64,000 bases of DNA from Dyadobacter sediminis (GTDB lineage: Bacteria; Bacteroidota; Bacteroidia; Cytophagales; Spirosomataceae): positions 310,001 through 374,000 of the forward strand of contig NZ_VCEI01000021.1 in the NCBI RefSeq assembly GCF_005860765.1, in the 5' to 3' direction. The position numbers were made by a program, and so were the translations under genes. Positions 1 to 52,821 of the stretch are shown one piece after another. Positions within the stretch are counted from its first letter, which is position 1. Each line of letters begins with the position of its first letter. Below the pieces are notes generated by a model, which saw only the letters and a list, made by a program, of their open reading frames with translations, made no database searches and was not told the origin of the DNA.

Positions 1-3000
1 CGCCGTTGGTGCCCGCATTCCGCGTGGTCACTGCCGGATTGTCTGTTGCAGTACTGGCATTTGAATACAGGTTGGCAAGACTTGTTGCGCCGTTCAGCGT
101 ATACAGATTCGCCGTTCCGTGATACTGGATCGTTTCATTCACAATTCCTGCGCCGGGGCCGGTTGGGTTTATTTTCAAATACTTGTCCGACAATGATCCG
201 CTTGCAGGTGTAATGCCGAACAGGGAAGCTAACTGGGCATCGGGCTTGAATGCAATCAGCGTGCCGCCTGCATTGGTCCAGTTTGTAAGCGCCGTAACAT
301 TGGCAGCCGAAAGCGCAATTTCTCCCAGAATAATCACATCGTAGCTGTTGATCAGCGTTGGAGTTTGTGTTATATCCGAAATATCTCTGGCAGCAAATGC
401 ATTAAAACCTTCGGCTCTTAGAATCTCTGCCGGATACTGGCTGAACGGATTTTCTGTGGAGCTGATGACCAGAATAGGTCCACCGGGGCCGTCAACAGGT
501 GAAGGCGGCGGCGTACTTTGTGTTGTAAACGTGGAAGTAAAGTTGCTTGCCATGATGTTTCCTGCGGCATCTTTGACACGCGGATCGGTACTTCCGCCTT
601 TTACCTCAATTGTATAGCTTGACGAGTAAATCAGGGCAGTATTCGGATTGAGCGTAGCCGTAAAAGTAGCTGCATTATAGGTTACGGCAGCTGGTATCAC
701 TGTACCTGCACGCAGCAACCTGATCGTAGAAGATGAGATGGAACTGGCGTCTATTTCTTCATTGAAGGTTACTAAAATATTGGACTGAATGTTTATGCCG
801 GTGGCGTTCGGAGCCGGCGAAACGGACGAAACAACAGGCGGTGTTTCGTCTTCGGCACCATCGTCAAATACGACATCCACAAAGTAGTTGCTGGATTGAT
901 AATTATCCGTAGGGAAAGTTGGCGTTGCGGAATATCTGTAAATACCGTTGTTGCCGTCTTCGTTATCGGCCAGCCCTCTCAGCGGACCTTTTACTTTTGC
1001 CAAGCCAAAATAGGGATTGACTGCGGAATAATTTCCCGCGCCGCTATGATAGGAAATGACGTAAGTCGTATTGGGAGTAATGGCTACGGGCGTAGTAAAA
1101 TTTGCCTGCTGCCATCCGGAAGCCGTTTCATTCTGAAAAACAATTTCTGCCAGTTTTACTCCGGCATTGCTGTAAAGTTGTCCGGTATGGGTTCCGGTGT
1201 TTCCTTCCTGTTTATAAAAACGCACGCCTGTAACATTTCCGGCTATTGTAGAACGGAATTTCATACCTAGCTGGATTCCTCCGCTGTTGTCATTGAAGAG
1301 ATTGTTTGACGGCACATCCGTTGGCTGAAACACCGTACACGGACAAGGCTGTGCAGCCGGGGCCGTAATGTTTACATTGACGGTATTTACTGCGCTCAGG
1401 TTTCCTGAATCATCGAATGCCCGGCTCCGGATGGTGGCACTTCCTTGTGTAACGGGTATCCATGAAAAATTCCAGCTGGTGGTACCCGTTGCAAGCCGCC
1501 ACGTTTTGCCTTCATCCGTAGAAACTTCGATTCCGGCAACTGTATTGGCGTCCGAAGCAGTTCCTGAAATGTTCACCGAAGTGCCGCTCGGAATGTTTGC
1601 ACCATTCGACGGAGAAGTAACCGTCAGGGCAGGAGCGACGAAATCTGTGGAAGCAGTGGCTGCAACAAGGTCCGACTGGCGGGTAGCCGGCTGCACACCC
1701 ATATCCGCAAACAGGTTTACAGTTGCCTGCTGCATGGCTTTACTGACCGGGGCATTGCCTCTGTCGTGGTTATCATCCAGGCCCCATGCCCATTGAACTG
1801 TTCCGGCTCCAAACACCAGGGCGCCGCTGCTGTGCTTGTACAAGGTAAGATAATGCGTTTTGCCGTTCAGTACCGTTCTTGACAAGAGGATTCTTCCGGC
1901 AGGATAAGTCGAGCGATAGTCTTCCTGTTCTGGGTCCCATTCGTAGCCCAGTGTATTCTGAGTCAATGTATGCGAACCGCTCTGAAGCGAAGCCACTGCT
2001 GTATTGCGCCAGAACCGCAGGTTTTTATAATCGGCCGGAACCTGAATGGTACCGGTATTCCCGTCCCAGCTTGCCTGTCCGCTAAGTTCATTTTCGGGGT
2101 TGCATCCGTCATGGCCGGCAATATCGCATCCGCTGCGCCATAATCCGGTCCATGTTGTACTTGGGTCGCACTTGCCGTTGCACTGGTTTTCTCCCAGACG
2201 TCCTTCCTTATAGCATACCAGTGTGCGGTAAGTAGTGGAGGTATTGGCAATACTGTTTTCCCAGCGGGTTTTCCAGTAAACTTCATTGCCGCTGAAAAAA
2301 GCGAGGTGCGTACCCGAATTCCGTGCCGCCGTTACGTTGTCACGCATGCCTTTGGACCAGTATTCATCGTGGCCAACAGACATAAAAACCTTATGGTTCT
2401 TAATAAGTCCGCCGCGACGGTCACTGTCAACATTGGTTGTGTAAGTCATGTCATAGCCGTTTTTTTCCAGAAAGCGAATCATCGGGTATTCCGAATTGAA
2501 CAGCCAGTCCTCTTCCGCGCCGCCTCCGCCTCCGCCTGAGCGTGTCAGGAACGGGCGGTTATAGCTTACTTTGGATGCTTTGCCAATGTTATTGACACCT
2601 GCATACAAGCTTCTGCCATTGTTCTCGTCGCCGTATACATTGTACGCCTGCCAGGTGGCATCGGATGTTTGGAAAAGCAAATTGGAATTGCTGTTGTCAT
2701 CCCTTACAACAAAAGCAATATGACTGGATCCGGCTGGATTGGATCGTGTCAGTTTGGCAATATAAATGCCCGAAACTGCATCGGACGGAATTACCCATTG
2801 GGCGGATTCGTCCCAGTTGCCGCAATCCACAAGGCCCGTAGCATCCGTCATGCAGGGTGGCTGCGGCGAAGCGGTACTTTTGTCGAAGCCGGCAATAAAC
2901 CGTGCACCGTTTCCCTGGTAATAGCCCAGCCTGTAGATATCTATTCTGTAACCGGCAGCGCTCGTCTTGATTTTGAACCGGGCGGTTTCCCCTTTGTTAT

Positions 3001-3184
3001 AACTGATATCCGTTGCGAATCCCTGTATACTGAGATCGCCTGCTCCGGTAATATCCCATTGACTGGCGGGACTGCCCGTTTTGGCATTTTCAATAACAAT
3101 AGCATTGCTCTGGGCGACTACCTCAGTAAATCGCAGCATGCTGATCAATAATAAACTAATAGCGAGACGTATTGATCCTGACAT
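1..3184 (-). CDS. Multidomain secreted protein, DMFase beta-like/DUF4082/Ig-like (3' end outside window)
   Basis: The minus-strand frame is open from an ATG at 3182-3184 to the window edge, about 1061 codons, so the C-terminus is missing. A signal peptide is visible (residues 1-25, ending EVVAQ). Residues about 26-500 resemble the C-terminal domain of N,N-dimethylformamidase beta subunit (motifs RLGYYQGNGAR, SVGHDEYWS). Residues about 510-610 look like an Ig fold (SPSNGANIPSGT), 615-765 like DUF4082 (FKSTIAGNVTGVRFYK-type, here FRSTIAGNVTGVRFYK), 780-893 like a bacterial Ig-like domain (SPAPNATGI), and 900 onward like a GATase/ThuA-type fold (YDVIILGEIALS). The family is known mostly from annotation and its substrate is unknown; true amidase activity is not implied. 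It is probably exported, and a T9SS sorting domain may lie in the missing end. There is no clear promoter, and a 0.9-kb gene-poor region lies upstream. Confidence 0.85.
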   Translation of the reverse strand, partial: MSGSIRLAISLLLISMLRFTEVVAQSNAIVIENAKTGSPASQWDITGAGDLSIQGFATDISYNKGETARFKIKTSAAGYRIDIYRLGYYQGNGARFIAGFDKSTASPQPPCMTDATGLVDCGNWDESAQWVIPSDAVSGIYIAKLTRSNPAGSSHIAFVVRDDNSNSNLLFQTSDATWQAYNVYGDENNGRSLYAGVNNIGKASKVSYNRPFLTRSGGGGGGAEEDWLFNSEYPMIRFLEKNGYDMTYTTNVDSDRRGGLIKNHKVFMSVGHDEYWSKGMRDNVTAARNSGTHLAFFSGNEVYWKTRWENSIANTSTTYRTLVCYKEGRLGENQCNGKCDPSTTWTGLWRSGCDIAGHDGCNPENELSGQASWDGNTGTIQVPADYKNLRFWRNTAVASLQSGSHTLTQNTLGYEWDPEQEDYRSTYPAGRILLSRTVLNGKTHYLTLYKHSSGALVFGAGTVQWAWGLDDNHDRGNAPVSKAMQQATVNLFADMGVQPATRQSDLVAATASTDFVAPALTVTSPSNGANIPSGTSVNISGTASDANTVAGIEVSTDEGKTWRLATGTTSWNFSWIPVTQGSATIRSRAFDDSGNLSAVNTVNVNITAPAAQPCPCTVFQPTDVPSNNLFNDNSGGIQLGMKFRSTIAGNVTGVRFYKQEGNTGTHTGQLYSNAGVKLAEIVFQNETASGWQQANFTTPVAITPNTTYVISYHSGAGNYSAVNPYFGLAKVKGPLRGLADNEDGNNGIYRYSATPTFPTDNYQSSNYFVDVVFDDGAEDETPPVVSSVSPAPNATGINIQSNILVTFNEEIDASSISSSTIRLLRAGTVIPAAVTYNAATFTATLNPNTALIYSSSYTIEVKGGSTDPRVKDAAGNIMASNFTSTFTTQSTPPPSPVDGPGGPILVISSTENPFSQYPAEILRAEGFNAFAARDISDITQTPTLINSYDVIILGEIALSAANVTALTNWTNAGGTLIAFKPDAQLASLFGITPASGSLSDKYLKINPTGPGAGIVNETIQYHGTANLYTLNGATSLANLYSNASTATDNPAVTTRNAGTNG

Positions 3185-4542: not shown

Positions 4543-7500
4543 ATGCTCTTTATTAAACTCAGCCCGTTTATGAATTCACATTACTTTAATGAAATATCTT
4601 TTCCAAATCCTGGTCGGATATGCTGCTTTCAGATCATAAAGAAGCAGAAACTGCTTCTTTCAATTGTGTTGTGCTTACTTGCAGCATCCGGTTTGCTGGC
4701 ACAGCCAGCCATTGAATGGGACAAAGCCTATGAACCTGTTCCGGGCCTGGCGCCCAAAATTGTATGTCCTACGGCTGACGGCGGTATCATTGTAGGGCGG
4801 GCACTGTATCCTTCCGACAATGCAGATTACATTGTTGTGAAATACGATGTAAACGGAAATAAAGAATGGGACAAAACATTTTCCGGAAACAAACAGGATA
4901 ATCTGAACGCGATTATTCAGACCTCCGATGGAGGCTATTTACTTGGCGGCTCCTCCAACTCGGATCCTGGCCAGGATAAAACCGATAATGCGTATGCATC
5001 TTCTGTGGATTACTGGATTGTCAAGATCTCGGCCAATGGCAGCAAAGAGTGGGATAAAACCTATGGCGGAAGCCGTGCTGATAATGTAAGATCTCTGAAG
5101 CAGACAAAGGATGGCGGTTATCTGGTTGGCGGTAATTCTCTTTCATCCAGGGATGGCGTCAAGTCTGAATCCAGCAGAGGTGCCCATGATATATGGGTTA
5201 TCAAAACAACTTCGGACGGCACCAAGGAATGGGATAAAACCATCGGAGGAAGCTGGCCGGACAGCCTGGTCTATGTGGATCAGACTGCCAGCGGAAATTA
5301 CATTCTGGGCGGTACCTCACTTTCATACGTAGGCGGGGATAAAACCGCTCCTAACAAAGGCCTTTATGACTTCTGGGTTGTACAATTGGCACCAGACGGT
5401 TCGAAGATATGGGACAAGACGTTTGGTGGCTATATTAGTGATAATTTGAAATTCATGGAGCGTACTTCCGACGGAGGCTACATCATGGGCGGCCAGACCG
5501 GTTCCCCGGTCGGCGAGGATAAATCGGAAAATGGATTCGGTTATCTTGATTACTGGCTGATAAAGATCAATGCAGACGGAGTCAAACAGTGGGACAGAAC
5601 ACTTGGAGGAACAAGGGGAGACCTTCTAACTTCTGTAAAGCAGACCCCTGACGGCGGTTATATTATCGGGGGCAGTTCCAGCTCGGATAAAAGTGGCAAC
5701 AAGACGGAAGCACGTAAAGGATCTACGGATTACTGGATTGTAAAACTAAACGCAGATGGCAGCATAGCCTGGGACAAAACAATTGGCGGAGCAAGGGATA
5801 CAAACAATCAGCTGATTGGTGCTTTTGTTGCACAGGACGGCGGATACCTGTTATGCGGAACTTCGGCAGGGAAAGCTACCGGCAATGACAGAACGGTGGC
5901 TATGTCCAATTCACCCGAATTATGGGTCGTGAAGCTGGTTTCAGAAACCAATACCAAGGCACTGACCTTTTCTTCCGGCTCACTCAAGTTCACCAAAGAG
6001 GGAAACAGCACAATTCCAGCGCAATCCGTTAAGCTTTCGGCAAATACCGGAACGCCTGCTGTAACCCTTAAGAATTCCAAAGTCAGCTGGCTGACGCTTC
6101 CTGCACCTGCACTGGGCTCCTTGCCTTTTACGGTAAATCCCGCAGGCCTTTCTCCGGAGAAATATACCTCACTCGTTGTAGCAACGGCTCCCGGTTATGC
6201 ACGGGCTTTGCTGAAAGTCAATCTGCATGTTAATGATGTAACGACGCCGCCTGTACTGGATCCCATCGGAGACAAGGAATTAACTGCCGGAGATACACTT
6301 GTATTTACAGCAACGGCTACAACAGGAGCCGGTCAAACAAAACAGTTTTCACTGATTGGCGCACCTGAGGGTACAACAATCGGCGAATCCGACGGGGTTT
6401 TCAGCTGGGCTCCTCTGGTTGCGGGCACTTACCGGTTTGTAGTCAGGATCAGCGTTGCTGCTATGCCGGAACTATATGATGAGGAAACGATAACTGTAAA
6501 AGTACTGAAGCCGGCCAATGAAACTTCCGTCCGCATCAATGCAGGCGGCGGTGCTTACAAAACCTCCGACGGGCGCATTTTTGACGCGGACAACTATTAC
6601 AGTGGCATCGACCGCACCAGCACGATTGGTGCTGACGTGGATATTCTGAGCACGACGGACGATGAGCTGTACCGTTCAGGCCGTAGCTCGGATTACTTTA
6701 ATTACAACATTCCGGTCAAGAACGGCATTTTAAAAGTGACACTCCATTTTGCAGAAACCTATTGGGGTGTCTATCCCGGGCGTCCGGGCGACAAGGACAA
6801 GCGTCGGTTCAATGTGAGTGCGGAAGGTGTGGTGAAGCTGGACAATTATAGCATCATCGGCCATGCAGGCCAGCCGTTAAATGCCGTACAGGAAACCTTC
6901 GAAGTGGCCGTTACCGACAGTGTTCTTAATCTGGCTTTCAGCTCAACACAAGAAAAGCGCGACCAGCCGCGGGTATCGGCCATTGAAGTGGAATTTGTCA
7001 ATTCTTTACCAATAATCATCACGCCGGTTGCAGATTCTTACGTAAGTTATGGCGCCAATGCCAATACCAATTACGGAAAGGAGCCCACGTTAGATGTTAA
7101 AGCGACGAGCGTTCCGGAACTGCAGCGGGTATCTTATCTCAAATTCTCGCTGGCCACTGTCAGCGATGTAACCAGCGCGAAGTTCCGCATCTACGGCTAT
7201 AACCATCAGGCCGACACCAGGGTTAATCTGGACTTGATCGGACTAGACAATGACGACTGGACCGAAACCGGCATCACTGCCAATAATGCCCCAACCGGCG
7301 TAATGACTGCGTTGGCTTATTTGAGCGTGACCCGGGAACCAGAGTACTTTGAAGTGGATATTACAGAATTTGCCAAAGCCCAGTTCGCCAGTGACAAAAT
7401 GCTGACCTTGCGGATCGATCAGACCTTCGGCGGCAAAAGGATTATATTCAACAGCAGGGAAAACGCCGCATTCAGGCCGGAGCTGATCATCAATACGAGT

Positions 7501-7827
7501 GAGCCCGTGAATTCTGTTACCAGGCTTGCCGCGGAAGAAGTGGACAACAATACTGCTGAATCCGGCGCGGAAAGTTCTGTCATTTACCCCAATCCGGTGC
7601 GTACGCAATTCACGCTTCAGATCGGAAACCAGCATCAGGAAGCGGTTGCTTTGCAGCTTTTCAATGAAGCCGGAAAAGCTTACAACATCAAAACGCCTGA
7701 GTTGCTGCACGCAGGAACCAAAGCCGAAATCAGCATTGCGGATCTTGCATTGAGTGAAGGAATTTATTTTCTGAAAGTACAGTCCATTTCCAAGTCGGAA
7801 GTGCTGAAAATAGTGGTAATTAAATAA
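4543..7827 (+). CDS. Secreted seven-repeat protein with malectin, CBM96-like and T9SS sorting domains
   Basis: The protein has 1094 residues from ATG 4543; ATG 4570 is an alternative start, and both leave an unusually long n-region before the hydrophobic stretch LLLSIVLCLLAASGLLAQ. Residues about 60-475 hold seven imperfect repeats of about 60 residues with the pattern WDKT-GG-DN-QT-DGGY-GG-DYW-VK-NADG. The count suggests a seven-bladed propeller, which is an inference. Residues 475-570 look like a BACON-type and 575-655 like a putative Ig domain. Residues 662-820 are malectin-like (RINAGGGAY, DDELYRSGR, LHFAETYWG), 824-990 are CBM96/DNRLRE-like (YVSYGANANTNYGK), and 1012-1094 are a T9SS type A sorting domain (YPNPV, GIYFLKV). 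The likely role is a carbohydrate-binding surface or exported matrix protein. The C-terminal half closely resembles that of the next two minus-strand genes, which it faces. Confidence 0.88.
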   Translation: MLFIKLSPFMNSHYFNEISFPNPGRICCFQIIKKQKLLLSIVLCLLAASGLLAQPAIEWDKAYEPVPGLAPKIVCPTADGGIIVGRALYPSDNADYIVVKYDVNGNKEWDKTFSGNKQDNLNAIIQTSDGGYLLGGSSNSDPGQDKTDNAYASSVDYWIVKISANGSKEWDKTYGGSRADNVRSLKQTKDGGYLVGGNSLSSRDGVKSESSRGAHDIWVIKTTSDGTKEWDKTIGGSWPDSLVYVDQTASGNYILGGTSLSYVGGDKTAPNKGLYDFWVVQLAPDGSKIWDKTFGGYISDNLKFMERTSDGGYIMGGQTGSPVGEDKSENGFGYLDYWLIKINADGVKQWDRTLGGTRGDLLTSVKQTPDGGYIIGGSSSSDKSGNKTEARKGSTDYWIVKLNADGSIAWDKTIGGARDTNNQLIGAFVAQDGGYLLCGTSAGKATGNDRTVAMSNSPELWVVKLVSETNTKALTFSSGSLKFTKEGNSTIPAQSVKLSANTGTPAVTLKNSKVSWLTLPAPALGSLPFTVNPAGLSPEKYTSLVVATAPGYARALLKVNLHVNDVTTPPVLDPIGDKELTAGDTLVFTATATTGAGQTKQFSLIGAPEGTTIGESDGVFSWAPLVAGTYRFVVRISVAAMPELYDEETITVKVLKPANETSVRINAGGGAYKTSDGRIFDADNYYSGIDRTSTIGADVDILSTTDDELYRSGRSSDYFNYNIPVKNGILKVTLHFAETYWGVYPGRPGDKDKRRFNVSAEGVVKLDNYSIIGHAGQPLNAVQETFEVAVTDSVLNLAFSSTQEKRDQPRVSAIEVEFVNSLPIIITPVADSYVSYGANANTNYGKEPTLDVKATSVPELQRVSYLKFSLATVSDVTSAKFRIYGYNHQADTRVNLDLIGLDNDDWTETGITANNAPTGVMTALAYLSVTREPEYFEVDITEFAKAQFASDKMLTLRIDQTFGGKRIIFNSRENAAFRPELIINTSEPVNSVTRLAAEEVDNNTAESGAESSVIYPNPVRTQFTLQIGNQHQEAVALQLFNEAGKAYNIKTPELLHAGTKAEISIADLALSEGIYFLKVQSISKSEVLKIVVIK

Positions 7828-7836
7828 AATAGCTTG

Positions 7837-7894
7837 GTACACAAAATCTCAACAGCACCTGGTGAAATCCCGGTGCTGTTGAGATTTTGTGTAC
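7837..7894 (+). terminator. Perfect 23-bp hairpin after the 4543-7827 gene
   Basis: Bases 7837-7859 are the exact reverse complement of 7872-7894, with a 12-nt loop. The hairpin starts 10 nt after the stop codon. No T-run follows on the plus strand, so it may act as a factor-independent terminator of the Bacteroidota type or as a 3'-end stabiliser. Confidence 0.75.
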
Positions 7895-8205
7895 TTACTT
7901 GTTATGTTAGACAAAAAAAGTTAACTCTTGTAAAAAGGACTTTAAAGTTGTAAACAAGAGTAGAGCTATAAATGAAAATTATAAAATAGTACCTTGAATA
8001 ATACCATGGTGTTTTCTCTTGATTTCAGATGTTTAAGAATTATTATTTTTAAATCAATGTAAATGACTTATGTATGTTTTAGTTCATTAAACAAACGTGT
8101 AGGGCGGGGTCAAACGTAATTTTTGCACCACTATTTATTGTACTGTTACTATCAGCTGTTTAGTATTGTTCCGAAAATAAACTGGTAATAAAAAATCATA
8201 TTATT

Positions 8206-8256
8206 CATAAACAGGAAAGCCGTACTTCTCTTGGAAGTACGGCTTTCCTGTTTATG
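8206..8256 (-). terminator. Perfect 23-bp hairpin after the 8272-12135 gene
   Basis: Bases 8206-8228 are the exact reverse complement of 8234-8256, with a 5-nt loop. Read on the minus strand it begins 15 nt after the stop codon, and a T-rich tract (TTTTTT) follows about 10 nt later. Confidence 0.8.
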
Positions 8257-8271
8257 GTACTTTTCAGCTTT

Positions 8272-11200
8272 TTACTCGGTCACCAGCATTTTAATCACTT
8301 CTGTAAATTCGTCCGACTTGATTTTAAGAAGATGGATTCCCGAACTTAGCGAAAGACCGGAAATACTGACCGCTGCTTTTTCGCCCGGCCGGACATTTTC
8401 AGTTCCCGTAATCGCATACCCTTTTCCCGATTCGCTGATCAGCTCAAACGAAACCGGACCGGCATGCTGTCTGGATACGGAAACCGTAAAATGATCTTTG
8501 ACCGGGTTGGGATAAACGTAGGATTCCAGATCAGTTTGTGCTGTTTCCTTGCTGCCTTCCTGACTTAACCGTGTATTCTTATTGGACTCCGGCGCAAGTT
8601 GGATAATGAGCTCAGGCCTGTTAAATGCATTCTCCTTGCTGTTAAAAACCAATCGGGTATTGCGGTTATTCGGATCATTCAAAAACAGGCTTACAAATCC
8701 TTCGTTCATTTCATGCTGGGCTTTTACATAGCCGGTAACATCCACTTCGTAGTACTGATAAACATCGTTGACGCCCGCCAAGCCCAGTGACGGCGTAGAT
8801 GCTGCCGGTGCGTTGTTGCTGGTGATGCCGTCTTCTTTCCAGCTACCCTCATCGACTCCATAGGCATGAAGGTAAATCGTGTTGCTGTTTTCATGGTTAT
8901 GGCCGTAAATCCTAAGTTTGGCCGTAGCAATTTTCTCTTGCGGAAGCTGGAACCTGAGGTACGATGAACGGTTTGGGGAAAGGTCACTGCCGGGCACCCG
9001 CTTGATTTCCAGATCCGGTGAAAAGCCGAAATTCATGTTTTTAAACGTGCTGTCCCGTACAAATGCATCCGCAACCGGACTGAGCGCCAAACTGCCTACA
9101 ACGACTTCAATGGCGGATATTCTGGGCAGGTCGGCTGCACCGCTCAGGAAATCAATGTTGAGCATGCCGTCGGTCACGGCCACGGGAAAGGATTTCTGGA
9201 CAGCGCGCATGGCACCGCCGGCTGCAACGAAAATATCAAAATTGGTCAGCTTGCGTCTGCCTTCCATATCCACATGAAACTGTCTCTTGCCAGCGCCGCC
9301 TGCACCTTTTCCGGGCACACCGTACCAGATTTCAGCAAAGTGCAGAATCACCGTGACTTTGCCATTTGGAACCGGAATGTTGTAGCTGAAAGAAGGCGAG
9401 CAGCGGCCCGAACGGTAAAGCACATCATCGGTGGTATTCAGGATATCGCCTGTCGCAATTAAAGTGGTGCGGTCGGTTCCGGCATAATACTGGTCTTTGC
9501 TGAACTGTCTTTCGCCGGAAGCTGCAAATGCTTCACCGCCCGCATTGATGCGCAGCGTAGCCGAAGGCAGCACTTCCTGGTACTTAAACAGCTCGGCGCC
9601 ATACATGCCGTTATCAGCCGAAATCAAAAGCTGGTTGTTTAAGGCTGCAAGTTCGTAAAACTTCGTAGAACCACCGGGCGTCATATCGTAAGCGAGAACG
9701 GTGGACTCGGCTGTGCCGCGTGATTTCCAGAGTTCGACACCGTGTGTTCCGTCCGATACGGTAAAGTAAAGCGTACTGCCTACGGCTGTCGTGTTGCCTA
9801 AATAGGTGCCTTCATTACGATCTTGGATGTCTTTCAATTGAAAGGTACCTTCTTCGCTGCCATCGCTTCGCCAGAGTTTTTCTCCGCTACAAGGAGGGAT
9901 AAAGTACAACAGGTCACCGGCTGCTGTGAAATTGCGCGTTCCAACCTCAGGAACGTAACCATTGCAGTACGTAAGCGTGATTGTGCCCTGCTCGGTCCCG
10001 TCTGTTCTCCAGAGAAATTCACGATTTAATTTACGATCATACCCATTCTGATTGATGATATAAAAGGTGACTGCCGAAAAATAAACCAGGTTATTGACCG
10101 TCGTCAGTTCCGAGAAAGTAGCATCCGGATCATCGGTATAAATATCCTTGATGACCGTTGTTCCTGCCGAAGTTCCGTCCGTTTTAACCAGCAGATGATG
10201 ATTGTTCACGTCATTGATCACAAAATAAACCTGATTATTGGCTACGGTAATGGACTTATAAAGGTATTGTCCCCGCCGTTGCACCAGCTGCCTGACGATT
10301 ACTGTGCCCGCTGCCGTGCCGTTGCTTTTCCAGAGTTCTACACTGTTTACGCCGTCCCATGCGCCGAAAAATACTTCTCCGTTTAAAGTAACCGGTGAAA
10401 AGGTAGGGGTACGTACAAAAGTCCGGATCAGCTCCGTTCCGGCTGCCGTTCCATTGCTTTTCCAGAGCTGCATGCTGCCTGATCCGTTGACGATGCCAAA
10501 AAACAGGGTGCCATTTACATTGATCAGTCCCTGCAGGGTATCGGCTTTGGTGAAGTCTTTTAATTTGATCGTTGTGGCCGAAGTTCCGCTGCTTTTCCAA
10601 AGACTATGTACCTGTGAACCGTTTCCGGTAACAAAATAAACCGCTCCGTTTACATGGGTGATCTGCTCGGGATTGGAGCTGTTTGCTCCGGTTAATACGT
10701 CACTGACAAGCACCGTGCCGACGTTACTGCCGTCTGTTTTCCAGAGCTCGCGGCCATGGATGCCGTCATCCGCTGAGAAGTAAGAGACATCATTTGCCTG
10801 TGTAAAATTGCGGGGTGTGGATTCGGGTCTGGCGATGTCGGTGAGTGCAACAGTGCCGCCTGTTACCATCGTGCTTTTATAAAGCTCAAGTCCGGACCCC
10901 GGATTGCCATTGAAGTACAACGTGCCGTTCGCATCCAGGAGCTGCGTAGCCCGCGCATCAGCCAGAACTTTGGTGCCATAAACAGTGCCATTGCTTTGCC
11001 ATAACTTATCTCCCGAGCCGTCATTGGCCATAAAAGCAGCCTTGCTGCCAACGGCTTTCAATTGTGATATACCGGAACCTGCACTGCCTGGGCGAATGTC
11101 TTTAACGAGCTCCGTGCTGGAAGCCGAGCCGCTGCTGATCCATAGTTCCTGTCCGCTGGCGCCATTATTTGCGGTAAAATAAAGCTGCCCGTTTATCACA

Positions 11201-12135
11201 GTAAACAGTGAAGGGTCGGAAGAGGCCGCACCCGGATTGATATTTTCAACCAGAACAGTTCCTGCTGCACTGCCGTTTGATTTCCAGAGCTCGTTGCCGC
11301 TTATGCCATCATTGGCCGAGAAATACAACGTGCTGCCTGCAGCGGTCAGGTTTTCAACGCCGGAGGCAAAGGTTTTTACCAAGGTAATTGCAGCAGTATT
11401 GCTGGCTTTATACAGTCCAATGTCTTGCCCGGCAGACCCTTTGAAGAATACTTCATTGCCAACTGCCTCCAGAGAAGAAAATGAACCGGTGCCTATAGTA
11501 TTTGCAACAGCCATTGTTCCGGCAGGAGTGCCATCGGATTGGTAAAGGTAATTAACGCCACTGTTGTCAACGACAATGAAAAACAAGGTTCCGTTAACAT
11601 CGACTATTTCCGGGATCCGAATCGGATCCATGTAAGATCCTTTCTTTATGACTGTTCTGCTATTTCCATTTATTTTTAACAGGCCCTCGAAATAACTGTA
11701 GAAATAAATTGATCCGTCTTCAGTCGTGTAAAATGGAATGCCCGTTCCAAGAAAATCAGGATCAAGTTCGGTGATGTATTTGGTGCCTTCCGGCGTGGCG
11801 TCGCTGCTGTACAATGCATTCCCCAGTTCATAAGAATGAACTACAAACAAGAGACGGCCATTTAATGTGGACAGACCGTTTACATAAGAACCTTCCGGCA
11901 TTTTCATGACGAACTCGGTTCCTTCGGCTGTGCCGTCACTTTTCCATAATCCGTTTTTCTGAAAGCCGTCGTCTGCAATCATGTAAATCAAATCGCCTAG
12001 TTTAACAGACGCCTGAATCTTGAATCCCTTTTCTGTTCTGGACACGTTGATGTCTTTGACAAGGGAGCCTTCCTGGGCCAGCAACGGCTGTATACTGATC
12101 AGCAGCAAGGCTAAAAACGGTAATAATTTTTTCAT
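8272..12135 (-). CDS. Secreted ELWxxDGT-repeat protein with malectin, CBM96-like and T9SS domains (copy A)
   Basis: The protein has 1287 residues. A signal peptide is clear (KKLLPFLALLLISIQPLLAQ). Residues about 25-855 carry roughly 16 ELWxxDGTxxGT repeats (ELWKSNGTAAGT, FLWRTDGTEQGT and similar), spaced 45-60 residues apart. Residues about 860-1013 are malectin-like (RINAGGEAF, DDVLYRSGR, LHFAEIWYG), 1017-1180 are CBM96/DNRLRE-like (RIYGHNHEN, RLVFNSKEN), and 1203-1287 are a T9SS type A sorting domain (VYPNPVKD, GIHLLKI). The repeat family is known from annotation and its ligand is unknown; beta-propeller or solenoid folding is inferred. It is a tandem paralogue of the gene at 12259-16107, in the same orientation, 123 bp apart with a hairpin between, so each is probably transcribed on its own. 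It is likely a surface adhesin or matrix protein. Confidence 0.88.
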   Translation of the reverse strand: MKKLLPFLALLLISIQPLLAQEGSLVKDINVSRTEKGFKIQASVKLGDLIYMIADDGFQKNGLWKSDGTAEGTEFVMKMPEGSYVNGLSTLNGRLLFVVHSYELGNALYSSDATPEGTKYITELDPDFLGTGIPFYTTEDGSIYFYSYFEGLLKINGNSRTVIKKGSYMDPIRIPEIVDVNGTLFFIVVDNSGVNYLYQSDGTPAGTMAVANTIGTGSFSSLEAVGNEVFFKGSAGQDIGLYKASNTAAITLVKTFASGVENLTAAGSTLYFSANDGISGNELWKSNGSAAGTVLVENINPGAASSDPSLFTVINGQLYFTANNGASGQELWISSGSASSTELVKDIRPGSAGSGISQLKAVGSKAAFMANDGSGDKLWQSNGTVYGTKVLADARATQLLDANGTLYFNGNPGSGLELYKSTMVTGGTVALTDIARPESTPRNFTQANDVSYFSADDGIHGRELWKTDGSNVGTVLVSDVLTGANSSNPEQITHVNGAVYFVTGNGSQVHSLWKSSGTSATTIKLKDFTKADTLQGLINVNGTLFFGIVNGSGSMQLWKSNGTAAGTELIRTFVRTPTFSPVTLNGEVFFGAWDGVNSVELWKSNGTAAGTVIVRQLVQRRGQYLYKSITVANNQVYFVINDVNNHHLLVKTDGTSAGTTVIKDIYTDDPDATFSELTTVNNLVYFSAVTFYIINQNGYDRKLNREFLWRTDGTEQGTITLTYCNGYVPEVGTRNFTAAGDLLYFIPPCSGEKLWRSDGSEEGTFQLKDIQDRNEGTYLGNTTAVGSTLYFTVSDGTHGVELWKSRGTAESTVLAYDMTPGGSTKFYELAALNNQLLISADNGMYGAELFKYQEVLPSATLRINAGGEAFAASGERQFSKDQYYAGTDRTTLIATGDILNTTDDVLYRSGRCSPSFSYNIPVPNGKVTVILHFAEIWYGVPGKGAGGAGKRQFHVDMEGRRKLTNFDIFVAAGGAMRAVQKSFPVAVTDGMLNIDFLSGAADLPRISAIEVVVGSLALSPVADAFVRDSTFKNMNFGFSPDLEIKRVPGSDLSPNRSSYLRFQLPQEKIATAKLRIYGHNHENSNTIYLHAYGVDEGSWKEDGITSNNAPAASTPSLGLAGVNDVYQYYEVDVTGYVKAQHEMNEGFVSLFLNDPNNRNTRLVFNSKENAFNRPELIIQLAPESNKNTRLSQEGSKETAQTDLESYVYPNPVKDHFTVSVSRQHAGPVSFELISESGKGYAITGTENVRPGEKAAVSISGLSLSSGIHLLKIKSDEFTEVIKMLVTE

Positions 12136-12187
12136 AAACCGGAAATTGAAAGTTGAGTTAAGGATTAAAGTTTGTTGTAATTTGAAG

Positions 12188-12227
12188 AATGAAAGCCGTC
12201 CTTGAAATCTTTCGGACGGCTTTCATT
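12188..12227 (-). terminator. Hairpin after the 12259-16107 gene
   Basis: Bases 12188-12201 are the exact reverse complement of 12214-12227 (14 bp, 12-nt loop). Its GAAAGCCGT core also occurs in the hairpin after the paralogous gene (8214-8224), which suggests the terminator was duplicated with the gene. Confidence 0.75.
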
Positions 12228-12258
12228 TGTTTATGCTTGCTAACTTGTAAGCTTAATC

Positions 12259-15200
12259 CTACTCAGTGACCAGCATTTTGATTACTTCTGTAAATGCATT
12301 CGATTGTATTTTCAGCATGTAAATGCCTGTGCTGAGTGTTAAACTAGAAATATTCACCTCCGCCTTTTCTCCCGGCCTGGCGCTTTCAGCTGTGCGCACT
12401 GCATAACTTTTTCCTGCCTGGCTGATTAGCTCAAAAGAAACCGGACCTACATGCTGCATGGAAAGGGAAACGGTAAACTGTTCTTTTACCGGATTCGGGT
12501 AAATGACGGATTCCTGTTCAGCTTGTACGTTTTCAGCAATGTTTTCCTGATTTAACCGTGCCGAACTATTGCTTACAGATGCAGGCTGAATGACTAACTG
12601 AGGAGGGTTAGCGCTATTTTCCTTGCTGTTGAAGACAAGCCTTGTATTCCGGTTATTCGGATCTGCCAAAAGCAAAGTCAGCAAATCGTTGCCGGATTCC
12701 TGTTGTGCTTTCACATAACTGGTTACATCAATTTCATAGTACTTGTATTGGTCATTGACAGCTACGTAGCCCAGCGAAGCCGTAGAAGCAGCGGGCGCAT
12801 TGTTTTTGCTGATGCCGTTTTCAGTCCAGCTATCGTCATCCACGCCATAGGCATGCAGGTAAATATCCTTGCTGTTTTCATGGTTGTGGCCATAGATGCG
12901 CAATTTGGCAGAACCTACATCAAACGTTTGTGGCAACTGAAAACGAACGTAAGAAGAACGTTTTGTGGAAGCATCACTTTCGGCTACATTCTTAACCTCC
13001 AGATCCGGGAAATACCCGTAGTTGGCCGCGCTGTAACCGCCATCACGTATGTAGGAATCCGCAACGACTTTGTAGGTTTGGCTGGCTACTACGACTTCAA
13101 TGGCTGAAATTCTTGGCAGATCGGCTGCGCCGCTTGTAAAGTCAATGTTGAGCATGCCGTCTGTAACGGTGACCGGAATGGATTTCTGAACCGCACGCAT
13201 CGCTCCGCCCGCAGCGGCAAAGATGTCAAAGTTGGTCAGTTTGCGGCTGTTTTCGATGGTGACGTTGAACTGCCGGCTGCCTGCGCCGCCCTTTTTGCCC
13301 GCAGTGCCGAAGTACGTTTCAGCAAAGTGCAGGATCACATTTACCTTGCCATTGGCAATCGGGATATTGTAGCTGAATGAAGGCGAGCAGCGGCCTGAGC
13401 GGTAAAGTACATCGTCGGTCGTGTTGAGAATATCACCTGTTGCAATGGAACTCGTGCGGTCAATGCCGGCATAGTAGCGGTCTGCATCAAACTGTCTGGA
13501 ACCGGAAGCGGCAAAAGCCTGTCCGCCTGCATTGATCCGGACGGTGTTGACCGTATTTATTTCCTGGTACCTGAACAGCTCGGCGCCGTACATGCCGTTA
13601 TCGGCAGAAATCAGAAGCTGGTTGTTCAAGGCTCCCATATCATAGAACCGTGTGGAGCCATTCGGGTTCATGTCATAGGCCAGACTGGTTGTTTCGGTAG
13701 CGCTATCGGTTTTCCAGATTTCACGGCCGCTGTTTCTGTCTGTGGCAATAAAGTACAGGGTTTTTCCGATGACAGTTACATGATCGATCGTTGTCCTGTC
13801 TGCTCTTGAACCGAAGTTGGTGACCCGCTGCGTACCTTCTGCAGTACCGTCACTTCTCCATATCTCTTCTTCAAAACCATGTACAAAGTATAAAAGACCG
13901 TTTACAGCCACCATGTCATGTACATAAATGTATGGATCGCCCTGGATAGTTTCCAGCTTTGCTATGGTATAAGTGCCCTGTTCAGTACCATCGGTTCTGT
14001 ATAGAATCTCACCGGAGTAATCATCAAAGGCTGCACCGTCAACGCCTACAAAAAATACCAGATCGTTCACTGCAACGAGTTTGGAAAGGTATTCCAGCCG
14101 AATATTTGAGACGACTGTTGTTCCTTCAGTAGTGCCATCGCTCTTCACCAGCGCGTTTTTGTAGTTACCAGACACGACAATGTAGTAAATAAAGTTACCG
14201 GCTACGGTGATGGAAGTGTACATGCTTTCACCCCAGGTAGGAGCTACATCCTTGACGAGTACAGTCCCTTCGGCGGTGCCGTTGCTTTTCCAAAGATCCA
14301 CGCTGTTGATGCCGTCATAAGCACCAAAGTACACCTGTCCGTTCAGGGTGACAGGTGAAAAAGTATCTGTTTGGGGGAAGGTTTTAACCAGCTGTGTTCC
14401 GGCCGTGCTGCCGTCACTTTTCCAGAGCTGCATACTGCCGCTGCTGTTGATAATCCCGAAAAACAGGGTTCCGTTTACATTGATGAGTCCCTGCAGCGTG
14501 TCTGCTTTGGTAAAATCTTTGACCTTGAACGTTGTCGCAGTTGTTCCACTCGTTTTCCATAAGCTATGCACCTGTGAATCGTTACCGGTAACAAAGAAGA
14601 CAGTTCCGTTCACGTTGGTGATCTGCTCGGGGTTGGAGCTGCTTGCACCGCTTTGTATGTTCGTGACCAGCATGGTTCCGGCCGTACTGCCGTCTGTTTT
14701 CCAGAGCTTGCGGCCATAGATGCCGTCGTCGGCAGTAAAGTAGGACACACCGTTTATTTCTGTAAAATCAAGAGGTATAGAGCTGGGTTTGGCAATATTG
14801 GTCACCGCGCTGGTGCCACCCGTGACCATTGTACTTTTAAAAAGCTCCATGCCTTTGCCTGCATTGCCATTGAAGTACAAGGTTCCACTGACATTCAGCA
14901 GCTTTGAAGCCATTACATCGGCCAGAATTTTAGTGCTGTATACATCCCCGTTACTCTGCCATAACTTTTCACCGGAGCCGTCATTGGCAACAAAAGCAGC
15001 CTTGCTGCCGACAGTCACCAGCTCTTTAATATCAGAGCCCGAATCACCAGTCCGAATGTCTCTGACCAATTTTGTGGAAGAAGCTGTTCCGCCCGTTTTC
15101 CATAGTTCCCGGCCATGCGTGCCGTCGTTTGCCACAAAGAAAAGCTGTCCGTCAGCAGTCCGGAACATGGAAGGGTCCGATGAAGCTGCACCCGGATTAA

Positions 15201-16107
15201 TGTTTTTGACCAGCACCGTGCCGGCCGTACTGCCATCCGTTTTCCAAAGCTCATTGCCGTTTACACCATCATTGGCCGAAAAGTATAGTTCATTTCCCGC
15301 ACTGACGAGGTTACTCAAACCGGATGTAAATTGCCTGACAAGCGTGACCGGAGTAGTATTGTTCGCTTTGAACAAGGCAGTACCTGAAGGCAGAACCTGC
15401 TTGAAGTATACGTTATCTCCAAGAGCTACCAGTGGAGCAGAAGGATTTGAGCCTGTTGTATTGGTAACTGCAACCGTACCTTCCGTGGTGCCATCGCTTT
15501 TATAAAGTATTATTTTTTCAAAGTTATTCAGTACTAAAAAGTACAACATGCCATTCAGGCTGACTCCATAGTTGACAGGCGAACCATACGATTCATAAAA
15601 CGGTTTCACCAGGACGGTTCCGGCTACGGTTCCGTCCGTTTTCATCAATCCCTTACTTGTTCCAAAATACAATGTTCCGTTTACATTGACAAATACTTCG
15701 TCGGCATAGTCCAATTGGAACAGTTGCAGCGAGGAAGTTGTGCTTGTCTGGCCAACATCCAGTTTATACAAATATTTCAGACCACTTTCCAATTCCACTA
15801 CAAAGTAGATTTTTCCGCCTGAATAGGTGAGGTGTCTTACATAATTCCTATAAAGGGGTACTTCAGTAATTTCTTTTATCAGGACAGTTCCGCCGGCAGT
15901 TCCATCACTTTTCCAGATTCCTTTCTTTTCTAAACCGTTGTCAGCAATCATATAGATTATATTATCTACCGCAATCGATTCATAAATACGCAGTCCGTTG
16001 ACCGCAGAGCCTGTGACATTAATGTCTTTTAATAGTGAGCCTTCCTGCGCCAGCAAAAGTTGCATGCTCATCAGAAACAAGGCTAAATACAGTACAATTC
16101 TTTTCAT
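12259..16107 (-). CDS. Secreted ELWxxDGT-repeat protein with malectin, CBM96-like and T9SS domains (copy B)
   Basis: The protein has 1282 residues, with signal peptide KRIVLYLALFLMSMQLLLAQ. The layout is the same as copy A: about 16 ELWxxDGT repeats over residues 25-850, a malectin-like domain at about 854-1008 (RINAGGQAF, DDVLYRSGR), a CBM96/DNRLRE-like domain at 1010-1180, and a T9SS type A sorting domain at 1197-1282 (YPNPVKEQF, GIYMLKI). The middle repeats (SNPEQIT, ADTLQGLINVNGTLFFG) and C-terminal domains are much more alike between the copies than the first 200 residues. This fits a tandem duplication followed by divergence or domain exchange at the N-terminal end. About 460 bp of upstream DNA has no clear promoter. 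Function is unknown beyond probable export and carbohydrate contact. Confidence 0.88.
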   Translation of the reverse strand: MKRIVLYLALFLMSMQLLLAQEGSLLKDINVTGSAVNGLRIYESIAVDNIIYMIADNGLEKKGIWKSDGTAGGTVLIKEITEVPLYRNYVRHLTYSGGKIYFVVELESGLKYLYKLDVGQTSTTSSLQLFQLDYADEVFVNVNGTLYFGTSKGLMKTDGTVAGTVLVKPFYESYGSPVNYGVSLNGMLYFLVLNNFEKIILYKSDGTTEGTVAVTNTTGSNPSAPLVALGDNVYFKQVLPSGTALFKANNTTPVTLVRQFTSGLSNLVSAGNELYFSANDGVNGNELWKTDGSTAGTVLVKNINPGAASSDPSMFRTADGQLFFVANDGTHGRELWKTGGTASSTKLVRDIRTGDSGSDIKELVTVGSKAAFVANDGSGEKLWQSNGDVYSTKILADVMASKLLNVSGTLYFNGNAGKGMELFKSTMVTGGTSAVTNIAKPSSIPLDFTEINGVSYFTADDGIYGRKLWKTDGSTAGTMLVTNIQSGASSSNPEQITNVNGTVFFVTGNDSQVHSLWKTSGTTATTFKVKDFTKADTLQGLINVNGTLFFGIINSSGSMQLWKSDGSTAGTQLVKTFPQTDTFSPVTLNGQVYFGAYDGINSVDLWKSNGTAEGTVLVKDVAPTWGESMYTSITVAGNFIYYIVVSGNYKNALVKSDGTTEGTTVVSNIRLEYLSKLVAVNDLVFFVGVDGAAFDDYSGEILYRTDGTEQGTYTIAKLETIQGDPYIYVHDMVAVNGLLYFVHGFEEEIWRSDGTAEGTQRVTNFGSRADRTTIDHVTVIGKTLYFIATDRNSGREIWKTDSATETTSLAYDMNPNGSTRFYDMGALNNQLLISADNGMYGAELFRYQEINTVNTVRINAGGQAFAASGSRQFDADRYYAGIDRTSSIATGDILNTTDDVLYRSGRCSPSFSYNIPIANGKVNVILHFAETYFGTAGKKGGAGSRQFNVTIENSRKLTNFDIFAAAGGAMRAVQKSIPVTVTDGMLNIDFTSGAADLPRISAIEVVVASQTYKVVADSYIRDGGYSAANYGYFPDLEVKNVAESDASTKRSSYVRFQLPQTFDVGSAKLRIYGHNHENSKDIYLHAYGVDDDSWTENGISKNNAPAASTASLGYVAVNDQYKYYEIDVTSYVKAQQESGNDLLTLLLADPNNRNTRLVFNSKENSANPPQLVIQPASVSNSSARLNQENIAENVQAEQESVIYPNPVKEQFTVSLSMQHVGPVSFELISQAGKSYAVRTAESARPGEKAEVNISSLTLSTGIYMLKIQSNAFTEVIKMLVTE

Positions 16108-16567
16108 GGTTTGTTGATTGTCAGGTAAGTTAATTGTTCAATTTTCATGTTTGATAAAGGTGTTAACCGGTAAAAGATCCTGCTGGCCACTTGTCTGGTT
16201 TTATCCGGTATATTTTGTTGTACAGTCCGGAAGGCGGCATGATTTAATATATATGTAAAAGCCAGTAATTTACAGCTATTTACTTGTATTGATATCCTCC
16301 ATCCTTTCAGGATGTTGTAATTACTACAAAGTGTTTTGCATCTATCGGAATAGTTACTAGACCTTCATCAACTTCTTTGCAGTTAATAAAGATTTAATAA
16401 CATGTTGTAAGAGTGACAAGGAGAAGATCATACAAAACCAAAAAACTTTCAATGGCAACAGAAAGGTGTAAAGCTTAGTTTGGCATTTGCCTGAGTTCTC
16501 CTTATTATGATCAAGGAGATTGTCGCGAAACTTCAGAGCTTAGATTGAAATCAGGACTATTGACCTC
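16108..16567. other. Intergenic region upstream of copy B
   Basis: About 460 bases with no gene recognised. The region is AT-rich and presumably holds the promoter of the minus-strand repeat-protein gene. I could not find a full TTG/TAnnTTTG pair. Confidence 0.4.
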
Positions 16568-16863
16568 TGACCTCCCCCTGCAAAACTGGGCGATTGATAA
16601 CTAGAGAAAATCGGGCAATTTTGATGACTTAACCATCAGAAAAAACCGCTTATGAAAACAACGAAATTTACAGAAGCACAGCCGGGTGGCAGATGCCGTC
16701 ATTTTTACGCTTCGGCAGGCGGACACCGGAGTGCCTGTTTTAGAGTTATGCCGTAAAATAGGATCAGTGAGGCGGCCTGTTATAATTGAAAACCGCGGCG
16801 ACGGACCGCAAGAAGTATGCTGGTTTAGGTGTGCCGGAACTACGTAAATTCCGGCAATTCGAA
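16568..16863 (+). mobile_element. Decayed IS3-family insertion sequence, left end and orfA remnant
   Basis: TGACCTCCCCCTGCAAAACTG from 16568 resembles an IS3-family left terminal repeat (many begin TGACCTGCCCCC) and follows a TGACCTC direct repeat at 16561. An ATG at 16652 starts MKTTKFTEAQ. After a frame change it continues as VIFTLRQADTGVPVLELCRK, and after a second gap as KKYAGLGVPELRKFRQFE (to 16863). These are the helix-turn-helix blocks of IS3 orfA transposase. orfB and a right end are not found before the next gene. The element is clearly dead: it has at least two frameshifts and large deletions. Confidence 0.75.
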
Positions 16864-17016
16864 CCAGCCCGCCAGGCGGGCCAGCCCGGATGATGACTAT
16901 CATGCGTGCATGTTCAGTCGTTTGCTAACTATGATCCTGTTGCCGGCCGGCCGGTGCCGTACTATAAACCGCACCGGCGCGTCGAATCAACTATTCGATG
17001 TCGGATTAAAGAAAAG

Positions 17017-17910
17017 TCAGGGCATATTTTTCTTTTCAAATGTCCAGTTTTCGTTGGATGACAGTCCCGGCGGATTACCGGTGAATAGTTTGCCTGCCTC
17101 TTTATCACCTTTCAACTGCCATTTGTACCATGCCGTGGCAACCTGGGCAAACTCGCCGCCGTGCGGCTGGCTGTACGTGCCGCCGTGTCCGACATTCATG
17201 TTGGCTACGAATACTGGTACATGATTGATCTGCCGGTAATCGTCCATCCCGTTTCCATAGGCAATATCCTTTTCGCCGCCCAGCAGATAGAGAGTTGGAG
17301 TATGAATTTTTTTGAGATTTTCCTTGGTCAGGTTTGGCATATTGCTGATGCCGTTCCCAGGCGTTTTGAAAATACCGCTGTTGCAAACAACCACCGTACT
17401 GATGCGCGGATCCGAGGAAACTTCCAGCGTCTGCAAACCGCCGCACGACATACCACTGACAGCAATTTTTTCAACATCTATTTTCTGGTAGAACGGACTG
17501 TTCTTATTGTCATTCTGTTTAATAGCCCATTCAACGGCATCCAGCAACTGCAACGACTTTGAACGATCTTTTGTCTGTTCACCCGTTTCATTAGGCATTA
17601 CGCCGATGGCAACCACCAAAAAACCATGAGAAGCGACCTCGCTTAAAAAGTTAACGTGCTCCCAGGGTGAGTTATAGCAGGCTCCATTGCCCCATGCAAT
17701 GACTGGCAACTTGTTCTTGTTGTCAAATTGACTTAGATCTTTTGGCCTGAACACCGTGTGCATTGGTAACGAGGCCTGTGTTGTCATTATTGCGCTGTAC
17801 TTTCCTGTGCCGCCGTCTTCCACTATACGCGAAGCAATTTCCTGCGCCATCAATGGTTGGATCAACAAAAAAGAACCTATTATTAGTCGAAAGATTTTCT
17901 TACTTACCAT
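17017..17910 (-). CDS. Secreted alpha/beta hydrolase
   Basis: The protein has 297 residues with signal peptide IFRLIIGSFLLIQPLMAQ. It has the nucleophile elbow SGMSCGG (G-x-S-x-G, near residue 152), a probable acid in LGGEKDIAYGN and a probable catalytic histidine in NVGHGGTYSQPHGGE. Loops resemble chlorophyllase-, PAF-acetylhydrolase- and polyester hydrolase-like esterases (WGNGACYNSPWEH). The likely role is periplasmic or extracellular ester hydrolysis, and the substrate cannot be read from the sequence. It stands alone, with the IS3 remnant downstream and the tRNA upstream. Confidence 0.82.
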   Translation of the reverse strand: MVSKKIFRLIIGSFLLIQPLMAQEIASRIVEDGGTGKYSAIMTTQASLPMHTVFRPKDLSQFDNKNKLPVIAWGNGACYNSPWEHVNFLSEVASHGFLVVAIGVMPNETGEQTKDRSKSLQLLDAVEWAIKQNDNKNSPFYQKIDVEKIAVSGMSCGGLQTLEVSSDPRISTVVVCNSGIFKTPGNGISNMPNLTKENLKKIHTPTLYLLGGEKDIAYGNGMDDYRQINHVPVFVANMNVGHGGTYSQPHGGEFAQVATAWYKWQLKGDKEAGKLFTGNPPGLSSNENWTFEKKNMP

Positions 17911-18502
17911 TGCTTGCTTGATCTGTTTGTTTATAACCTAAAACTGCTGATAACGCCTTTTTACTGATCTCAAGATAAAAATATGCGCCCTGATGCGCCG
18001 CATTGCTGCAAGGCAATCGAAACACAGTTTGCTATAGGCAGCAGTTGGCAGCAGGATCAAGAAAATGTTCCTCATAATGATAAAGGCATTGATTACATGG
18101 TCAGTATTGCTTTGCTTAATCTGGCGAAGTAAATAAGCATAATCAAGCATGTCCCTATCTGAACATTCAATAACTGACTTACTTATTTTGCCTGTCATAA
18201 ACATGAAAGGCCGGAGGGCTTTATAGGAAATACTATTTGGCTACTTCCCGATTTTGAAGCAAGCCCGGCTCTTTGCCGCCAGTTTGTTTTTGACAATGGA
18301 CGTTTCTTTCTGGCTCTGAACCATTTGAAACGATCTTTGTGAAAATTGGAAGAAAAAATAGTGTAGTTAGGGACAAATCCCACTATTTCGCGTCAAACTT
18401 TCTGCTAGCGGGACAAAGATTTGCAACGGGATATAGATATATGGAATGCTTTTCGGACTGATCCAAAAAAACGATTGCTACTTTTATTGCAACCCAACAA
18501 AA
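17911..18502. other. Gap between hydrolase and tRNA
   Basis: About 590 bases without a supported gene. Two minus-strand open frames (17938-18204 and 18195-18383) have no domain, no good leader and odd composition, so they are not called. Confidence 0.45.
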
Positions 18503-18531
18503 AAGGACTTGGCTAAAAAAGCCAAGTCCTT
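18503..18531 (-). terminator. tRNA terminator
   Basis: On the minus strand, a 12-bp perfect stem (18520-18531 with 18503-18514, 5-nt loop) lies 10 nt after the tRNA 3' end and is followed by TTTT. This is a classic intrinsic terminator. Confidence 0.85.
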
Positions 18532-18541
18532 GATTTTTAAG

Positions 18542-18615
18542 TGGGCCCACCTGGGATCGAACCAGGCACCTACTGATTATGAGTCAGTTGCTCTAACCGA
18601 ATGAGCTATAGGCCC
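18542..18615 (-). tRNA. tRNA with anticodon CAU (probably elongator Met)
   Basis: The minus strand folds as a standard 74-nt cloverleaf: acceptor GGGCCTA with TGGGCCC (one G-U pair), D arm AGCTCATTCGGTTAGAGC, anticodon arm CTGACTCATAATCAG, and T arm CCTGG-TTCGATC-CCAGG, with discriminator A. The CCA end is not encoded. The anticodon CAU could serve elongator methionine or, if the C is modified to lysidine by TilS, isoleucine AUA. Initiator tRNA is unlikely because the T and anticodon stems lack the GGG/CCC pairs. Confidence 0.9.
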
Positions 18616-18706
18616 GAAATTTTATCCGGTTGTCCACTTTTAGCTGGATCGGAGTGCAAAATTAGCGAAACGAATCAAATCTCCAAACGATTATGATAAG
18701 AATAAG

Positions 18707-18714
18707 TACTTTTG
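18707..18714 (+). promoter_or_regulatory. Possible -7 element before HD hydrolase
   Basis: TACTTTTG matches the Bacteroidota -7 box TAnnTTTG and lies 36 nt before the TTG start. No TTG is seen at the expected -33 position. Confidence 0.3.
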
Positions 18715-18750
18715 TCCGTTGCTACATAACTAATCTGCCTAAAATTAATT

Positions 18751-52770: not shown

Positions 52771-52821
52771 CATAAGCATTGTTTTACAAATTTGATCAGA
52801 CAAAAATCAAATAACCAAATT

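Follow-up and report, generated by a model that had tools for sequence, protein, structure and literature searches.

Surface variation within and between species of Bacteroidota has been discussed mostly for capsules, SusCD systems and gingipains. The nearest published parallel to the proteins described here appears to be the gingipain/HagA system of Porphyromonas gingivalis. According to one study (PMC5266723), domain rearrangement and genetic exchange occur in this type A type IX secretion system (T9SS) cargo, which has shared adhesin domains; another (PMC9143113) describes type A T9SS cargo as anchored to anionic lipopolysaccharide (A-LPS). We analyzed a stretch of 64,000 nucleotides from Dyadobacter sediminis (C12:310001-374000; hereafter, the window), which contains three large genes. 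Their products end in the same cassette of malectin, CBM96 and sorting domains and begin with different head modules. We propose, with a probability of about 0.6, that they belong to a large paralogue family in which a constant cassette and variable heads are re-paired by recombination between copies. Like the gingipain/HagA proteins, the family members are T9SS-exported (here by prediction), share C-terminal modules and vary by domain rearrangement. The gingipain/HagA system comprises few loci with proteases and cleaved-adhesin domains, and the comparison there was made between strains, whereas the Dyadobacter family has about 30 copies per genome, a malectin-CBM96-C-terminal domain (CTD) tail and no enzyme family in the scanned heads. 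In the open-access PMC literature, we found no paper on this cassette family and none for "ELWxxDGT"; the passages of Dyadobacter T9SS work on algal association (PMC9606717, PMC9430724) do not mention malectin.

Gene 1 (4543-7827, plus strand; 1094 residues), gene 2 (8272-12135, minus strand; 1287 residues) and gene 3 (12259-16107, minus strand; 1282 residues) are open frames that fit exactly the interval ends given by an earlier sequence-only reading for three large T9SS genes. The domain order assigned by that reading was also recovered. In genes 1, 2 and 3, respectively, Pfam detects Malectin (PF11721; E = 1.9e-22, 2.3e-27 and 8.6e-29), CBM96 (PF24517; E = 7.7e-40, 1e-37 and 1.8e-41) and Por_Secre_tail (PF18962; E = 1e-9, 1.4e-6 and 4.2e-10), always in this order and above the Pfam cut-offs. 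All three genes also match the DNRLRE domain and TIGR04183 of NCBIfam, so that the sorting domain passes both curated cut-offs. In gene 1, the malectin domain lies at 6526-6984, CBM96 (also matched by fold) at 7018-7497 and the type A T9SS sorting domain at 7582-7818. The corresponding positions are 9109-9558, 8599-9084 and 8287-8517 in gene 2, where the sorting domain is slightly above the Pfam cut-off (28.9 against 27 bits), and 13099-13542, 12586-13080 and 12274-12504 in gene 3. Over 464-518 residues, the C-terminal part of gene 1 shares 40-44% identity with those of the other two genes (E = 9e-90 or better); between genes 2 and 3, identity is 58% along the full length. Therefore, chance likeness is excluded; the C-terminal parts, whose unrelatedness would have overturned the earlier claim, are related. 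The shared cassette is about 430 residues long.

Genes 2 and 3 had been taken as tandem copies, and they are indeed adjacent paralogues. The nearest relative of the gene 2 cassette is that of gene 3 (69% identity), but the gene 3 head is closer to four other ELW heads in the genome (58-67%) than to the gene 2 head (55%). Therefore, a recent tandem duplication is ruled out, and an old one is possible. At three places, perhaps by coincidence, a WDKT gene stands tail to tail with an ELW gene: C1:337886-346249, C1:884716-891586 and window 4543-12135. Gene 1 adjoins a gene for a giant T9SS protein of 2768 residues (window 1-3184, minus strand; C12:304878-313184) with DMFA2_C, DUF4082, Ig (immunoglobulin) repeats, two cassette-like malectin domains and a sorting domain, and without CBM96.

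In the AlphaFold model of gene 1 (mean pLDDT 80.6), the WDKT/DGGY head (residues 55-465; 4705-5937, plus strand) is confidently predicted to form a closed ring of seven four-strand blades (residues 57-465; blocks mostly at pLDDT 77-95). It resembles the C-terminal beta-propeller of CylK (7ron, 7fh6) by sequence (E = 1e-16) and by fold (E = 1e-18). Unlike CylK, gene 1 has no catalytic N-terminal half, and enzyme activity is not expected. The linker behind this head (5950-6507) is modelled as two Ig-like sandwiches; the second (residues 569-640) resembles He_PIG at 22.3 bits, slightly below the 24-bit cut-off. The heads of gene 2 (9562-12072, minus strand) and gene 3 (13549-16044, minus strand) consist of ELWxxDGT repeats, matched by TIGR04534 in 13 and 15 stretches, respectively, and not in gene 1. 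They score 454-469 bits; TIGR04534 is a repeat model only, and the malectin-CBM96-CTD tail lies outside it. By motif spacing, the repeats number 18, in gene 3 as two blocks of nine; this count was taken from the motif list and includes a weak repeat near residue 156 that was recognized by visual inspection. Thus, the seven WDKT repeats of the sequence-only reading stand, and its figure of about 16 ELW repeats becomes 18. The model of the ELW head is of middling quality (mean pLDDT 71, pTM 0.50); Foldseek returns propellers at probability 1.0 with low TM-scores to the query (0.16-0.30). Two D. flavalbus genes retain the signal region but, of the ELW repeats, only about the last nine.

A profile built from the three window cassettes detected 30 complete cassettes in intact frames in the D. 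sediminis genome (6.2 Mb in 33 contigs, with 103 sorting-domain matches), together with one ELW gene without malectin. The window genes are therefore three of 31 members, a family size that the earlier reading had understated. Seven of these cassette genes have ELW repeats. Five Dyadobacter genomes, one for each species, yielded 128 complete cassettes: D. sediminis (G000) 30, the draft of D. flavalbus NS28 (G001) 33, G005 (a single contig of 6,071,216 bases) 32, G012 26 and D. bucti (G041) 7. This set comes from fetched stretches and excludes cassettes that are incomplete or contain stops (such as one in G005 and two in G012), and the D. flavalbus set is not proven exhaustive. At C1:369057-371671 and C1:417472-420504 of D. 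sediminis, stops separate cassette genes from their WDKT heads; the counterpart of the latter is intact in D. flavalbus.

At E<=1e-60, 5 of the 48 Dyadobacter genomes had the cassette. When 222 genomes of the taxonomic family were searched at E 1e-80, with seven candidates scored per genome, the same five were recovered and no complete cassette was found outside Dyadobacter. Among 390 sampled genomes of the order (four candidates scored per genome), non-Dyadobacter matches occurred in three genomes only and consisted of malectin alone. The TamB tree places four of the five cassette-bearing genomes on one branch (Shimodaira-Hasegawa-like approximate likelihood ratio test, 94), which rules out a wholly patchy distribution over any species. 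G012 stands apart, and a single clade of all five is rejected (p=1.5e-7, fast model). One Dyadobacter relative has a TamB gene with stops (G059:C1:4105890-4110477), perhaps through sequencing error. In the uncultured Cytophagales AVDCRST_MAG56, 13 loci (L137-L140, L143-L149, L152 and L155) have C-terminal malectin, mostly as tandem pairs after long and varied N-terminal parts; these may form a comparable family with a constant tail.

At least six sequence families occur as heads: WDKT propeller, ELWxxDGT, receptor-L/leucine-rich repeat (LRR), FG-GAP, Kelch and Calx-beta. Types were called by motif counts, then by Pfam on a part and later on 125 of the 128 heads. WDKT (66) and ELW (30) heads are the most numerous; the others are receptor-L/LRR (13), Calx-beta (5), FG-GAP (3), Kelch (2), only Ig (2), double heads of the type WDKT-malectin-LRR (2) and parts of giant proteins (4), and one cassette has no head. 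Head L238, under the working label U829, belongs to the Calx-beta set. Among the families listed for the 125 heads (25 of 26 and 9 of 9; three heads were omitted for length), no enzyme family was above its cut-off. One head matched NANM, a model of an enzyme with Kelch blades, below the cut-off. In one genome, Calx-beta heads are found on four cassette genes arranged in tandem (G012:C2:1863500-1880500). On contig C26 of D. sediminis, two WDKT heads (L090: 9510-12992, plus strand, and 16339-19716, minus strand) precede a different tail, in which a sorting domain and a weak F5/8-type-C match replace malectin-CBM96.

Next to this diversity of heads, the cassettes are mixed with respect to head type. 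In the tree of 30 D. sediminis cassettes, whose bootstrap is not fully settled, a branch with support 95/98 unites five WDKT, five ELW and two LRR heads. In approximately unbiased (AU) tests, a single clade is rejected for ELW heads (p=0.001) and WDKT heads (p=7.6e-6), and weakly so for LRR heads (p=0.035). A further AU result, for five ELW rows (p=0.003), does not count as evidence, since this test was selected with the tree already known. The well-supported branches of the 128-row tree require at least seven label changes for WDKT, four for ELW and four for LRR. ELW gene C1_342395 and WDKT gene C22_756071 share 81% identity in the cassette, whereas the former reaches at most 71% with any ELW cassette.

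The comparison with D. flavalbus, whose TamB is 97% identical, shows such re-pairing between close species. Of the 30 genes, 29 were compared, with heads differing more than twofold in length skipped; in 16 of the 29, head and cassette have different nearest partners (one a tie). C22_756071 and its counterpart share 94% identity in the head and 58% in the cassette; DNA identity is 78-98% up to about 400 nt inside malectin and about 50% beyond. C30_183420 has the opposite pattern (cassette 93%, head 42%), and its DNA flanks are unrelated on both sides. Two D. flavalbus ELW genes have cassettes that are 98% identical despite unrelated flanks. One gene each in D. flavalbus (L104) and G005 (L211; its LRR called by motif counts) has the order WDKT, malectin, LRR and full cassette. 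This double-head layout is what unequal crossover at malectin would leave.

Traces of exchange were also measured at the DNA level. Different copies in the D. sediminis genome share 51 exact tracts of at least 40 nt. The longest (241 nt) joins window gene 1 and C22_720357, and four (62, 59, 43 and 41 nt) join ELW and WDKT genes. We then searched synonymous sites for segments of excess identity, counting pairs at p<0.01 under a permutation null. Because this null takes no account of regional synonymous constraint, between-genome pairs served as the guard. Within genomes, excess patches were found in 35/435 pairs of G000, 29/527 of G001 and 28/496 of G005 (5.5-8.0%), against 11/780 for G000-G012, 10/832 for G005-G012 and 9/960 for G000-G005 (0.9-1.4%), all pairs of distant genomes. 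These three genomes thus bear the statistical mark of sequence exchange among copies inside one genome. The sister pair G000-G001 gave 65/990, as expected from common history. Among pairs with heads of unlike type, the counts are 12/209 in G000, 17/275 in G001 and 15/265 in G005. WDKT gene C26_33302 shares a significant segment with window gene 2 (p=0.004) and gene 3 (p=0.001). The pairwise homoplasy index (PHI) is positive on all cassette sites and on ELW heads (p=0.002). The claim of the sequence-only reading that a single export and carbohydrate-type cassette carries exchangeable heads is borne out by the tree tests, the swaps between sister species and the synonymous-site test with its between-genome controls.

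T9SS secretion and surface attachment are predicted for the family because of the CTD, a PorU-type sortase in the genome (NF033707, 1245 bits) and a likely Q-type cleavage site. In the YPNP motif, P, N and P are present in 128/128 cassettes, and a crude pattern finds an AxA-Q-like site near the N-terminus of 108/124 heads. The malectin domains resemble Xenopus malectin (2jwp/2k46; Pfam E = 2e-22 to 9e-29). When pocket residues were mapped via phmmer alignment, the equivalents of Y116 and F117 were aromatic in 128/128 cassettes each, and D186 was Asp in 113/128. CBM96 was recognized by profile (Pfam E = 1e-37 or better) and by its beta-sandwich fold, the model matching two known structures at a target TM-score of about 0.8. 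These are the alginate-binding TM6-N4 (7vbo), described in PMC9971899, and a chondroitin-sulfate-binding module (8wab). Of the basic residues of TM6-N4, the equivalents of K25 and R36 are kept in gene 3 and, across the cassettes, in 119/128 (K) and 116/128 (R). The cassette proteins may bind sugars and may have a joint surface role.

We suggest the following mechanism. The cassette would export the protein and probably anchor it on the outer membrane and on glycan, and the head, mostly of beta-propeller type and otherwise an LRR-like receptor-L module, would make the specific contact. The malectin and CBM96 DNA common to the copies could serve as homology for recombination, and gene conversion and crossover would place heads on new cassettes and cassette segments on new heads. 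Several results weigh against this explanation or its parts. Head type is strongly clustered on the cassette tree, with 20 changes where shuffling gives 57 on average; therefore, exchange is occasional. G012 shows no excess of patches (5/325, 1.5%) despite 26 complete cassettes, and PHI lacks significance when only the third positions of the cassette are used (p=0.24). The malectin domain of gene 3, which unlike Xenopus malectin is part of a predicted secreted bacterial protein, does not conserve the sugar residues Y67 and Y89 (two of five). The CBM96 domain of gene 3 does not conserve K10, K22, K27 and K31 of the TM6-N4 groove (four of six); therefore, alginate is not supported as the CBM96 ligand. 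Finally, SusD genes lie within 10 kb of 6/20 gene clusters where 4.9 are expected (p=0.37). This test used 46 of 54 SusD matches; the other eight were fragments or duplicates or lay on different contigs, and among them C22:605913 (E 6e-5) would sit near a cluster. Recurrent neighbours of the cassette genes belong to broad families only, and no profile search for transposases was made.

Some of these results fit neutral concerted evolution, in which duplication enlarged the family and conversion between repeats follows inevitably, with no role in generating diversity. The clustering of head types, the broken heads of C1_370175 and C1_417472, and the existence of the family in G012 without excess conversion all agree with this account, and we consider it possible. 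However, heads unrelated in sequence have been re-paired repeatedly, also between close species, and most copies have intact frames. It is unlikely that the proteins are polysaccharide-utilisation accessories that deliver substrate to SusCD systems. Although Malectin and CBM96 are carbohydrate-type modules and some copies are flanked by SusC/SusD-like genes, SusD proximity is at the chance level given above, and the scanned heads lack an enzyme family above cut-off.

The two remaining explanations concern the data and the definition of the cassette. Mosaics could be chimeras of short-read assemblies, since the D. sediminis genome is in 33 contigs and that of D. flavalbus is a draft. However, G005 is a single contig with the same excess and a WDKT/LRR double-head gene, and it therefore speaks against chimeras; moreover, the signal is common to G000 and G001. 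We regard this explanation as highly improbable. It is scarcely credible that widespread domains were fused independently and that the genes have no cassette in common. Malectin, CBM96 and the CTD are each widespread in Bacteroidota, and malectin with CTD but without CBM96 occurs at several of 41 named non-Dyadobacter loci. However, the full malectin-CBM96-CTD unit occurs at none of the 41, and the cassettes align end to end with up to 81% identity under different heads.

Apart from the cassette genes, the window contains two neighbouring Uma2-family genes (52186-52770 and 52792-53406, plus strand), near-identical in appearance.

We return to re-pairing of heads and cassettes by recombination between copies. 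Because T9SS export is predicted, some pocket residues are kept and SusD enrichment is absent, the family may be a repertoire of surface binding proteins (glycan-binding or adhesin) with a constant tail. Selection may have acted on this diversity itself. A bolder and rather doubtful proposal is that a free-living bacterium possesses a constant-plus-variable surface recognition repertoire. In such a repertoire, the cassette would be both export/anchor module and homology arm for exchanging at least six head families among about 30 loci, 5'-truncated copies could serve as donors, and close strains would differ in the binding faces presented to glycans, neighbours or phages. One secretion and anchor tail on about 30 differing heads offers a concrete system for asking whether head exchange diversifies secreted proteins. 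Its recombination signal is measurable with a between-genome control, and tail, head and junction can each be tested separately.

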